Both the position numbers and the translations under genes were made by a program. Shown here one piece after another: positions 44,313 through 48,665 of a stretch of DNA of 64,000 bases (position 1 is its first letter; each line of letters opens with the position of its first letter). Source of the DNA: Ignavibacterium sp. (GTDB lineage Bacteria > Bacteroidota > Ignavibacteria > Ignavibacteriales > Ignavibacteriaceae); the NCBI GenBank assembly GCA_032027145.1, contig JAVSMP010000001.1:2733116-2797115 (forward strand). Direction: 5' to 3'. The notes under the pieces were generated by a model that ran no database searches, was not told the DNA's origin, and was given only the letters and a program-made list of their open reading frames with translations.

Positions 44313-44496
44313 GAAAGTTTAAGAAGTTTTTACTTAATCACTTATAACATTAATGAAAAGCAAAACTCTAACTGAAATACTTTATTTCTCATAAACAGGA
44401 ATATCAATAATTGATTTTTCTTGTAATAAGGATTGATTAACAATTATCAAATTCAACAAATAAGCATAATTCCACTTATATTTAATTAATCAATGC

Positions 44497-44512
44497 TGGC
44501 ACTAACTTTGCA
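44497..44512 (+). promoter_or_regulatory. Sigma-54 (RpoN) promoter
   Basis: TGGCACTAACTTTGCA matches the -24/-12 consensus TGGCAC-N5-TTGCA exactly, with GG and GC ten bases apart. It lies about 60 bases before the methylmalonyl-CoA epimerase start. The same stretch contains TAACTTTG, the -7 box of the nuo and atp promoters, but no TTG box lies at the needed distance. Confidence 0.7.
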
Positions 44513-44570: not shown

Positions 44571-44975
44571 ATGAATATAACACACATTGAACATATCGGT
44601 ATTGCAGTTAAAAACATTGATGAAGCAAAAAAATATTATGAGGGAGTACTTGGATTAAAATGTTATTCCATTGAAGAAGTAGCTGATCAAAAAGTTAAAA
44701 CTGCATTTTTTATGGTTGGTCAAACAAAAATAGAATTACTTGAATCAACCTCGCCTGATGGACCAATCGGAAAGTTTATAGAAAAAAAAGGCGAAGGTAT
44801 CCATCATCTTGCATTTGCAGTAAAAGGATTGCAAGATTCATTGGATGAAGCTAAATCCAAAAATATAGTTTTAATAGATGAGAAAGGTAGAAAAGGTGCA
44901 GAGGGACTAAACATTGCTTTTCTTCATCCTAAATCTACATTTGGTGTATTAACCGAGCTTTGTGAAAAACCATAA
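44571..44975 (+). CDS. mce: Methylmalonyl-CoA epimerase
   Basis: Converts (S)- to (R)-methylmalonyl-CoA, linking methylmalonyl-CoA mutase with the carboxyltransferase. The 134-residue VOC-fold protein begins [20 protein letters not shown]; the metal ligands are expected at H8, at [11 protein letters not shown] (about residues 72-82) and at the glutamate of VLTELCEKP. Length is normal. It is the first gene of the sodium-pumping decarboxylase operon; mmdA starts 90 bases downstream. No mutase gene is in the window. Confidence 0.94.
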
Positions 44976-45065: not shown

Positions 45066-46619
45066 ATGGAAAATAAAATAAAAGAGTTGATGGCGCTGCG
45101 TCAGCAAGCCAAGCTTGGCGGCGGTGAAAAGCGTATTGCATCACAACACAAGAAAGGCAAACTTACTGCCAGAGAAAGACTTGAACTGCTGCTGGATGAG
45201 GGCAGTTTTGAAGAATTTGATATGTTCGTTTGCCATAGAAGCATTGATTTTGGATTAGATAAAGAATCATATCTGTCGGATGGAGTTGTTACCGGTTATG
45301 GAACAATAGACGGACGATTAGTATATGTTTTTTCACAGGACTTTACAGTCTTTGGCGGATCGCTATCTGAAATGTATGCTCAAAAAATATGTAAGGTTAT
45401 GGATAAAGCACTCAAAGTTGGTGCACCTGTAATCGGAATAAATGATAGCGGCGGTGCCAGAATTCAAGAGGGTGTTAAATCACTTGGCGGATATGCAGAT
45501 ATTTTTCAGCGGAATATTTTAGCCTCTGGTGTCGTTCCCCAAATATCTGCAATATTTGGACCTTGTGCCGGCGGTGCTGTTTATTCACCTGCCTTAACAG
45601 ACTTTATTGTAATGTCAAACAAAACCAGTTATATGTTTGTAACTGGTCCAAAAGTAGTTAAAACAGTTACAGGCGAAACAGTAAGCGAAGAAGAACTTGG
45701 CGGTGCAATGATTCACGGTGCAAAATCCGGAGTTACGCATTTCGTAGCTGATACTGAAGAAGAAGGAATACAATTAATCAGAAAACTTTTGAGTTATTTA
45801 CCTCAAAACAATCTTGAAGACCCACCTGTTCTTCCTTCTGATGATCCAATTGATAGACTTGAAGATGCACTTAATACACTTATACCTGAGCAGACTAATA
45901 AACCTTATGATGTTAAGGATGTAATTCACGCGGTAGTAGATCAGCACGAATTTTTAGAAATTCAGAGACATTATGCTCCTAACATAGTTATTGGATTTGC
46001 AAGATTTAATGGAATGCCAGTCGGTATTGTTGCTAATCAACCAAACTATCTTGCAGGTGTACTTGATATTAACTCTTCACGTAAAGCAGCAAGGTTTGTA
46101 AGATTTTGCGATGCATTTAATATTCCAATTGTTACTTTTGTTGATGTTCCGGGATTTTTGCCAGGCACAACACAGGAATACGGTGGAATCATTATACATG
46201 GTGCAAAATTATTATTTGCTTTTGGTGAAGCTACTGTTCCCAAAGTTACAGTCATTTTGCGTAAAGCTTATGGTGGTGCGTACGATGTGATGAGTTCAAA
46301 ACATCTAAGAGGTGATATTAATTATGCATGGCCCGGAGCTGAAATTGCTGTAATGGGTCCAAAAGGTGCGATAGAAGTTCTTCATCAAAAAGAACTTCAA
46401 TTGATTACAGATCCAGAAGAGAGAATTAAATTTGTTAAGGATCGCGAAGAAGATTACAGAAAGAAATTTGCTACTCCTTATGTTGCAGCAAAATATGGAT
46501 ATATTGATGATGTAATTGAACCGAGAAACACAAGATTCAGAGTTATAAGAGCTTTGCAATCACTTGCTACAAAGAAGGATACAAATCCTCCGAAAAAACA
46601 TTCTAATCTTCCATTGTAG
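45066..46619 (+). CDS. mmdA: Methylmalonyl-CoA decarboxylase alpha / propionyl-CoA carboxyltransferase subunit
   Basis: A 517-residue carboxyltransferase of the acyl-CoA carboxylase beta family, which moves a carboxyl group between methylmalonyl-CoA and biotin. Two crotonase-like halves are visible: the first with [20 protein letters not shown] and [20 protein letters not shown] (about 130-150), the second with [18 protein letters not shown] and [19 protein letters not shown]. No biotin carboxylase lies nearby, while gamma, biotin carrier and beta-pump genes follow, so the decarboxylase function is favoured over an ATP-driven carboxylase. Confidence 0.93.
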
Positions 46620-46631
46620 AAAGGAGCTAAA

Positions 46632-47042
46632 ATGTTTTTAGGATTAATACAACAAACTGCAACAGATTCTTCAGCGGCTGTAATTCATAAAAATTCAATT
46701 AAGTTTTTAGAGTTGGATCCCTGGGGTATTGGTATGGCAGTTATCGGTTATTTAGTAGTATTTGCAGCACTATTATTTCTATATCTGATTTTTGCCAATT
46801 TAACAAAAGCTCTTAATCTTAATATTAAAAGAATTTTGAGAAGAGAAGGAAAAACCGAAGATATTAAAGAAGAGCAAAGTATATCGGGCGAGGTTAATGC
46901 TGCAATTGCAATGGCTATCCATCTTTACTATTCAGAAATGCATGATAAAGAAGATACCGTTTTAACAATAAGTAAAGTATCAAGAACTTACTCTCCGTGG
47001 AGTTCAAAGATCTACGGATTAAGACAACATCCCAGATTTTAG
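46632..47042 (+). CDS. OadG-like gamma subunit of sodium-pumping decarboxylase
   Basis: A 136-residue protein with one membrane helix (about 35-58: GMAVIGYLVVFAALLFLYLI) and a cytoplasmic tail. DPWGIGMAVIGYLVVF is the typical OadG/MmdD start. The subunit holds the alpha and beta subunits together at the membrane. The C-terminal SPWSSKIYGLRQHPRF resembles the tails seen in Bacteroidetes homologs. AAAGGAG upstream is a strong ribosome site. It lies 12 bases after mmdA and 13 before the biotin carrier gene. Confidence 0.85.
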   Translation: MFLGLIQQTATDSSAAVIHKNSIKFLELDPWGIGMAVIGYLVVFAALLFLYLIFANLTKALNLNIKRILRREGKTEDIKEEQSISGEVNAAIAMAIHLYYSEMHDKEDTVLTISKVSRTYSPWSSKIYGLRQHPRF

Positions 47043-47055
47043 AGGATAAAAAATT

Positions 47056-47499
47056 ATGAAAAAATTTAAGTTTACTATTCAGGGTAATAAATACGATGTA
47101 AATATCATTACTGTTGAAGAAAACATTGCTGAAATTGAAGTAAACGGTGCAACATATAAAGTTGAGTTAGATAAAGTAATCGCACAAAGTAAAACACCTA
47201 AGCTTGTAAGATCAGTAGCCGTACCTTCAACTGATATTGCCCCATCCCAACAAAAAACAAGTGCACCAACCTCACCAAAAGGTGCTGGATTTGTCAAATC
47301 ACCACTACCAGGTGTCATACTTAATATTCACGTTAAAGAAGGTGATCAGATTAAAGTTGGAACAAAACTGATAACACTTGAAGCAATGAAAATGGAAAAC
47401 AATATTAATGCTGATAAAGAAGGTGTGGTAAAAGCAATTAAAGTTAAAACTGGTGACTCTGTTCTTGAGGGTGAAGTACTTGTAGAAATCGGAGAATAA
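47056..47499 (+). CDS. Biotin carrier protein of methylmalonyl-CoA decarboxylase
   Basis: A 147-residue biotinyl carrier with an N-terminal beta-rich part (1-50), a flexible proline/serine/threonine linker (about 52-78) and a C-terminal biotinyl domain. The biotin attachment site is K112 in LEAMKMENN, and SPLPGVILNIHVKEGDQI starts the domain. It carries the carboxyl group from the alpha subunit to the membrane beta subunit. Spacing of 13 bases before and 2 bases after ties it to the gamma and beta genes. Confidence 0.93.
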   Translation: MKKFKFTIQGNKYDVNIITVEENIAEIEVNGATYKVELDKVIAQSKTPKLVRSVAVPSTDIAPSQQKTSAPTSPKGAGFVKSPLPGVILNIHVKEGDQIKVGTKLITLEAMKMENNINADKEGVVKAIKVKTGDSVLEGEVLVEIGE

Positions 47500-47501
47500 T
47501 T

Positions 47502-48665
47502 ATGGGAAATTTATTTGATTTTATGACTCACGGTTTCGAGCAGTTTTTCCAATATACTGCTTTCCCTCATTTTACAATTGGTCACATCGTAATGATAATA
47601 GTAGCCCTGGCATTTATCCATCTTGCTATTAAAAAGGAGTATGAACCATTATTACTTATTCCAATAGGTTTCGGAATTCTGATTGGTAATATTCCCTTTT
47701 TACAAGATGCCAATTTGCAGATAGGCGTCTATGAACCTGGCAGTGTAATGAGCTATCTTTATTTCGGAGTAATAAAAGGAATATATCCTCCGCTGATCTT
47801 TTTAGGTATTGGTGCAATGACTGATTTTTCAACTCTGCTATCAAATCCAAAACTTCTTTTACTTGGTGCTGCTGCTCAGTTAGGAATTTTTGGTGCGTAC
47901 ATAATCGCACTTTCATTAGGTTACTTGCCCGAGCAAGCTGCTGCAATTGGTATTATCGGCGGTGCAGATGGACCCACTGCAATATTTCTTGCATCTAAAC
48001 TTGCACCTGATTTAGTGGGTGCAATAGCTGTTTCAGCTTATTCTTATATGGCACTGGTTCCGGTTATTCAACCGCCAATAATGAGATTGTTGACAACTGA
48101 TAAGGAACGTGTTATTAGAATGAAACCACCGCGTTCTGTTTCAAGATTAGAAAAAATACTGTTCCCTATTGTAGGGCTTATTTTGACAACCTTAATCAGT
48201 CCAAGCGCTATGCCTTTATTAGGTATGTTATTTTTTGGAAACTTATTAAAAGAAAGCGGGGTTACTAAAAGATTAGCTGATACTGCAAAAGGAGCAATGA
48301 TAGACATCGTTACTATTTTAATTGGACTGACAGTTGGAGCATCTACACAAGCAACTACTTTTTTAACTGCAAAATCAGTTGGAATATTTGCACTTGGTGC
48401 TGTTTCATTTATGATAGCTACTTGTGGCGGAGTGATGTTTGCTAAAGTTATGAATCTTTTCTTAAAAGAAGGGAATAAAATTAATCCACTAATTGGTAAT
48501 GCTGGTGTATCTGCAGTACCTGATAGTGCTCGCGTATCTCAAGTAGTGGGGTTGGAATATGATAAAACAAATCACTTGTTAATGCATGCCATGGCACCTA
48601 ATGTTGCTGGAGTAATTGGAAGTGCAGTTGTTGCAGGTATTCTCCTAAGTTTCTTTATGGGATAA
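47502..48665 (+). CDS. Sodium-pumping decarboxylase beta subunit (OadB/MmdB)
   Basis: Integral membrane subunit of 387 residues that decarboxylates carboxybiotin and exports sodium ions. Typical stretches are FLGIGAMTDFSTLLSNPKLL (about 99-118), IGIIGGADGPTAIFLASKLA (about 149-168, with the sodium-site aspartate) and NPLIGNAGVSAVPDSARVSQ near the C-terminus. About ten hydrophobic helices are seen. It closes the operon and is followed by a strong bidirectional terminator. Confidence 0.95.
   Translation: MGNLFDFMTHGFEQFFQYTAFPHFTIGHIVMIIVALAFIHLAIKKEYEPLLLIPIGFGILIGNIPFLQDANLQIGVYEPGSVMSYLYFGVIKGIYPPLIFLGIGAMTDFSTLLSNPKLLLLGAAAQLGIFGAYIIALSLGYLPEQAAAIGIIGGADGPTAIFLASKLAPDLVGAIAVSAYSYMALVPVIQPPIMRLLTTDKERVIRMKPPRSVSRLEKILFPIVGLILTTLISPSAMPLLGMLFFGNLLKESGVTKRLADTAKGAMIDIVTILIGLTVGASTQATTFLTAKSVGIFALGAVSFMIATCGGVMFAKVMNLFLKEGNKINPLIGNAGVSAVPDSARVSQVVGLEYDKTNHLLMHAMAPNVAGVIGSAVVAGILLSFFMG

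Follow-up and report, generated by a model that had tools for sequence, protein, structure and literature searches.

The window, that is, the whole stretch of 64,000 nucleotides analysed here, holds an operon for a putative sodium-pumping methylmalonyl-CoA decarboxylase, which raises the question of which sigma factor and which regulator would control its transcription. The first-pass annotation had claimed a full match to the RpoN consensus located 60 bases before mce and in the right direction. The match is exact (TGGCAC-N5-TTGC) and lies on the strand of mce, whereas the distance between the element and the mce ATG at 44571 is 58 bp, not 60 (Table 1). The genome also encodes RpoN, as the proposed sigma-54 control supposes (TIGR02395, 430 bits).

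Table 1. Positions in the window of the mce operon genes and of the elements upstream.
Feature	Position	Strand	Basis
Dyad TTCTCATAAACAGGAA, candidate upstream activator site (enhancer)	44386-44401	+	Found with the -24/-12 site in 14/14 orthologs
Weak second dyad TTCTTGTAATAAGGAT, possible second half of activator site	44418-44433	+	Low score; 32 bp past the first dyad
Predicted sigma-54 -24/-12 promoter element TGGCACTAACTTTGCA	44497-44512	+	Exact consensus; GG 44498-44499 (-24), GC 44510-44511 (-12)
Predicted transcription start	44523	+	About 12 bp past the -12 C, from usual sigma-54 geometry
mce, methylmalonyl-CoA epimerase	44571-44975	+	TIGR03081, 150 bits, above cut-off
mmdA-like carboxyltransferase (alpha) subunit	45066-46619	+	PF01039; TIGR01117, E 1e-245, 816 bits, below the cut-off (999)
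OadG-like gamma subunit	46632-47042	+	PF04277, above gathering score
Biotin carrier subunit	47056-47499	+	PF00364; MmdC model match below cut-off
mmdB-like sodium-translocating beta subunit	47502-48665	+	TIGR01109, 495 bits, above cut-off; aligned to OadB 6iva

Because thrS and two tRNA genes lie upstream on the opposite strand, the operon starts at mce. As in known sodium-pumping methylmalonyl-CoA decarboxylase operons, the alpha, OadG-like, biotin carrier and beta subunits are encoded together, in a gene run that includes mce. By contrast with those operons, the alpha subunit and the biotin carrier fall here below the curated cut-offs, so that methylmalonyl-CoA is assigned as the probable substrate mainly from the neighbouring epimerase gene. 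Comparison of the MmdB sequence with the OadB structure 6iva showed that the GGADGPTAI, AYSYMALVP and GVSAVP stretches, which we take to be those expected of a sodium pump, are intact.

The element TGGCACTAACTTTGCA is the only zero-mismatch match to the sigma-54 consensus in the window, in which 141 matches with at most three mismatches were counted compared to 131 expected by chance. TGGCAC-N5-TTGC occurs once in the 3.67-Mb genome, both strands included, and 0 times in the backward control, and a sigma-54 weight matrix run over 864 kb gave the mce site the top score of 19.8, the runner-up reaching 16.9. It should be noted that a rough estimate predicts one or a few such matches by chance when both strands of 3.67 Mb with this composition are counted. 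Since a genome this large may well contain one exact match of such length, the motif match alone is not significant, and the significance of the mce site lies in its conservation before orthologs.

Relatives of mce were found in 71 of 80 genomes of the family, with 67 readable upstream regions. A TGGCA[C/T]...TTTG[C/T] site precedes mce in 14 of these 67 orthologs, belonging to genera g1, g11, g19 and g29. The GG-N10-G[C/T] pattern, which the first-pass annotation had proposed to seek in related genomes, is thus kept before orthologous mce genes, and it comes with an upstream dyad: TTCTCA-N7-GAA was present in all 14 site-bearing orthologs, while the site-dyad pair was found in 0 of the 53 other family orthologs. 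Neither site nor dyad was detected at 80 other GTDB mce loci (Bacteroidales, Flavobacteria, Melioribacteraceae and others), so that the arrangement is limited to part of the family. When the 14 upstream regions were aligned on the site, only 9 of 120 columns were invariant, and these correspond to TGGCA and TTTG; the site carried 1.60 bits of information per column, compared to 0.60 in the upstream flank and 0.73 in the downstream one, the regions having diverged outside the conserved elements. In 6 of the 14, the -12 element ends with GT instead of GC. That the site is a chance match devoid of function, as the frequency expected at this genome size might suggest, is contradicted by its retention amid diverged flanks in 14 genomes of four genera with the dyad co-occurring, and the probability left to this explanation is negligible.

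Sigma-54 control of mce is supported for this genome but is not universal in the family, most other members having no site. In these members mce seems, judging from a sequence pattern, to lie downstream of a methylmalonyl-CoA mutase gene. G078, a family member with a close mce, has neither site nor dyad.

Two observations were made along the way on individual orthologs. In genus g29, site and dyad are present in one genome and both absent from the other; the g29 mce is 87-90% identical to that of the present genome and the g29 regulator copy only about 70% (L024, L027), and a transfer of the mce operon involving g29 is possible. In a close relative, the mce frame at G043:C1:1233363-1233761 (L138) contains 3 stop codons with site and dyad intact, and may be either a pseudogene or the result of a sequencing error.

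The site also contains TAACTTTG, which corresponds to TAHHTTTG, the -7 element described for the primary sigma factor of Bacteroidota (PMC6847099). The operon could accordingly be served by a housekeeping promoter, the sigma-54 match being accidental, and upstream of the genes of this genome TAHHTTTG is indeed enriched on the sense strand (171 versus 96). However, only 7 of the 14 orthologs retain the TA of the -7 box whereas all 14 retain TGGCA, which sigma-A does not explain, together with the dyad, and the other composite promoters described below carry no TAHHTTTG box. The -7 box was rejected as the explanation on this conservation, and we regard a housekeeping promoter as very unlikely. 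A dual promoter, in which a genuine sigma-54 element is overlapped by a TAHHTTTG box giving basal sigma-A transcription in some species including this one, would agree with both elements being intact here and in 7 of the 14 orthologs; as the overlap could be a coincidence in AT-rich DNA, we consider this improbable too. Comparison of the orthologs supports the reading of the site before mce as a sigma-54 promoter.

The upstream dyad scored 13.8 with its matrix in this genome. The distance between the end of the dyad and TGGCA is 68-95 bp in 13 of the 14 genomes and 176 bp in the remaining one. The weak dyad that follows the first one has similar degenerate counterparts, 20-32 bp past the first, in g1 and g29 and none in g11 and g19; a conserved paired dyad at mce was rejected, given the weakness of the second dyad and its restriction to these first two genera. 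The notion that the dyad is a common genomic repeat was likewise discarded, as TTTCTCA-N7-GAA gave 14 matches compared to 23 in the backward control. The matches other than that at mce lie within or overlap predicted genes.

The composite formed by the dyad and the sigma-54 element is shared with other operons. The family genomes were searched for the dyad followed, after a gap of 67-97 bp, by GGCA-N6-TTG, a search that yielded very few control matches. Composites were found before korD-type ferredoxin genes in g1, g11, g16, g25 and g27, before nuoA in G066 and G067, before a small cytochrome c gene in G010 and G060, before the PFOR gene in G077 and before a MerR-like regulator gene in G004, G011, G060 and G066. 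Some matches fall inside coding sequence, such as a glmS-like gene, and are surely due to chance. A stricter search returned 45 composites in the family genomes versus 1 in the control, and 6 versus 2 in 78 genomes of other families of the order, which makes the composite module a feature of the family. In three other genera, the gene downstream of a composite encodes a MerR-like regulator with a cysteine-rich tail (L292, L295, L313, L317).

In the present genome, of which 2.08 Mb (57%) were scanned, 5 composites scored at least 28 compared to 0 with mirrored geometry. They precede a 2-oxoacid:ferredoxin oxidoreductase, which has the composite in relatives too, mce, two group A6 [FeFe]-hydrogenase operons and an acyl-CoA dehydrogenase, the HydA-like proteins being above the NF040763 cut-off. 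Weaker composites were found before rnfC and before the gene adjoining an AtoC/NtrC-like regulator; as the mirrored control also gives matches at a score of 22 (11 versus 7), the rnf assignment is tentative. The methylmalonyl-CoA mutase genes near 99.6 kb, which unlike the copy at 2.95 Mb fell within the scan, gave no composite.

Two side observations can be added. A protein encoded in the gene run of a group A6 hydrogenase with a composite promoter, at G000:C1:480081-482093(-) (L374:81-2093), combines a sensory [FeFe]-hydrogenase domain and a histidine kinase in one fusion and is a possible H2 sensor. Sigma-54-like sites were seen before dnaK (TGGCACCTTGCTTGTA, G000:C1:2912503(-), L111) and before a clpC-like gene (TGGCATTTGAATTGCC, G000:C1:3190212(-), L112), and sigma-54 control of these chaperones is possible.

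The genome encodes 12 strong sigma-54 activators. An FlgR-type activator for mce had a distribution that fitted three genomes, and it was abandoned as this fit failed in the family; FlgR is encoded in a flagellar cluster and is missing from three genomes that have the mce site. The favoured candidate is the AtoC/NtrC-like response regulator encoded at genome position 3066187-3067539, with a PAS histidine kinase gene just upstream and cytochrome genes downstream. From Pfam matches and sequence, it comprises a receiver domain, an AAA+ domain with GAFTGA and a Fis-type HTH; it lies below the curated AtoC and NtrC cut-offs and can thus be given neither name. The cytochrome c gene that is a composite target in G010 and G060 has an ortholog adjoining the candidate regulator in G000, G047 and G035.

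A dyad matrix trained on the mce and oxidoreductase promoters only was applied to the loci of the activators. It gave 70 matches in 16.4 kb at the AtoC/NtrC-like regulator loci (27 of 30 loci), often paired about 32 bp apart, compared to 9 matches in 17.4 kb at the FlgR loci (8 of 30 loci), a difference with a binomial p of about 1e-13 and a Fisher p of about 1e-6 per locus, the independence of these related loci being overstated. TGGCAC-N5-TAG sigma-54-like sites lie downstream of the regulator-locus dyads in several genomes. The AtoC/NtrC-like regulator is present in 73 of 80 family genomes, and its distribution does not discriminate because the gene is nearly universal in the family. On the enrichment of dyads beside its gene, this regulator is likely the activator that binds the mce dyad. 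The sigma-54 promoter could also be real and its dyad bound by another activator, the AtoC-like regulator being a target and not the binder: the genome encodes 11 other strong activators, and the link between regulator and dyad is positional. Against this, dyad matches at the loci of the other activators in three complete genomes are no more than marginal, and regulators of the AtoC-like type commonly adjoin their targets; we judge it unlikely. The orphan enhancer-binding protein to be sought according to the first-pass annotation is therefore unlikely, the activator being probably a two-component response regulator with a PAS kinase as its partner.

Taken together, the features computed from the genomes, namely the site, its conservation, the linked dyad, the shared dyads at other operons and the dyad enrichment beside one activator gene, point to a mechanism that we hold to be probable: the sigma-54 promoter would drive mce, mmdA, oadG, the biotin carrier gene and mmdB via a dyad-bound NtrC/AtoC-type regulator shared with other anaerobic operons. 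RpoN RNA polymerase would wait in a closed complex at TGGCACTAACTTTGCA until a signal perceived by the kinase leads to phosphorylation of the response regulator, which would then bind the dyad TTCTCA-N4-TRRGAA about 95 bp upstream. By DNA looping, the bound regulator would contact the polymerase and its AAA+ domain would open the complex with ATP, transcription starting from about 44523. The same regulator would serve the 2-oxoacid:ferredoxin oxidoreductase, the group A6 [FeFe]-hydrogenases, the cytochrome operon adjoining its gene and probably rnf, so that the whole fermentative module, decarboxylase included, would be induced together. Binding, activation and co-induction are in this scheme modelled on established sigma-54 biochemistry.

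Sigma-54 with an NtrC-type activator is a classical combination. The locus resembles such NtrC/AtoC two-component systems in the -24/-12 spacing, in a dyad located about 70-175 bp upstream and in a receiver-AAA+-HTH protein with GAFTGA whose gene adjoins that of a PAS kinase; it differs in its lineage and in its predicted targets, which are ferredoxin-linked fermentation and a sodium-pumping decarboxylase. In Desulfovibrio vulgaris, operons for pyruvate, lactate and energy metabolism are under several activators of the sigma-54 regulome (PMC4641369). Energy-metabolism operons under sigma-54 activators, predicted ones in the present case, are common to both systems, whereas D. vulgaris belongs to another phylum and a text search of that study found no Rnf, hydrogenase or decarboxylase targets (PMC4641369). 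The genome paper of Melioribacter roseus places bifurcating hydrogenases and Rnf in fermentation, and a text search of it brought up no treatment of sigma factors (PMC3534657). Methylmalonyl, propionate and Ignavibacteria are all absent from the main text of a cross-phylum survey of sigma-54 dated 2025, and a search of the open-access literature returned no paper joining sigma-54 and methylmalonyl-CoA decarboxylase.

We would put at about even the chances of a broader proposal, in which one two-component sigma-54 switch governs the whole fermentative module of the family. The module would comprise the oxidoreductase, the A6 hydrogenases, which are likely bifurcating, Rnf and, in certain genera, complex I or PFOR, and the decarboxylase would have been recruited to it in four genera only. 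As the distribution of its promoter suggests, the sodium-pumping decarboxylase would have come under the wider regulon in a subset of the genera. The analysis offers a concrete candidate circuit for fermentative energy conservation, with its site, dyad, activator and target list, in a little-studied and mostly uncultured lineage. If the proposal is true, energy conservation based on ferredoxin and ion gradients would have a sigma-54 master regulator in the Bacteroidota-Ignavibacteria lineage.
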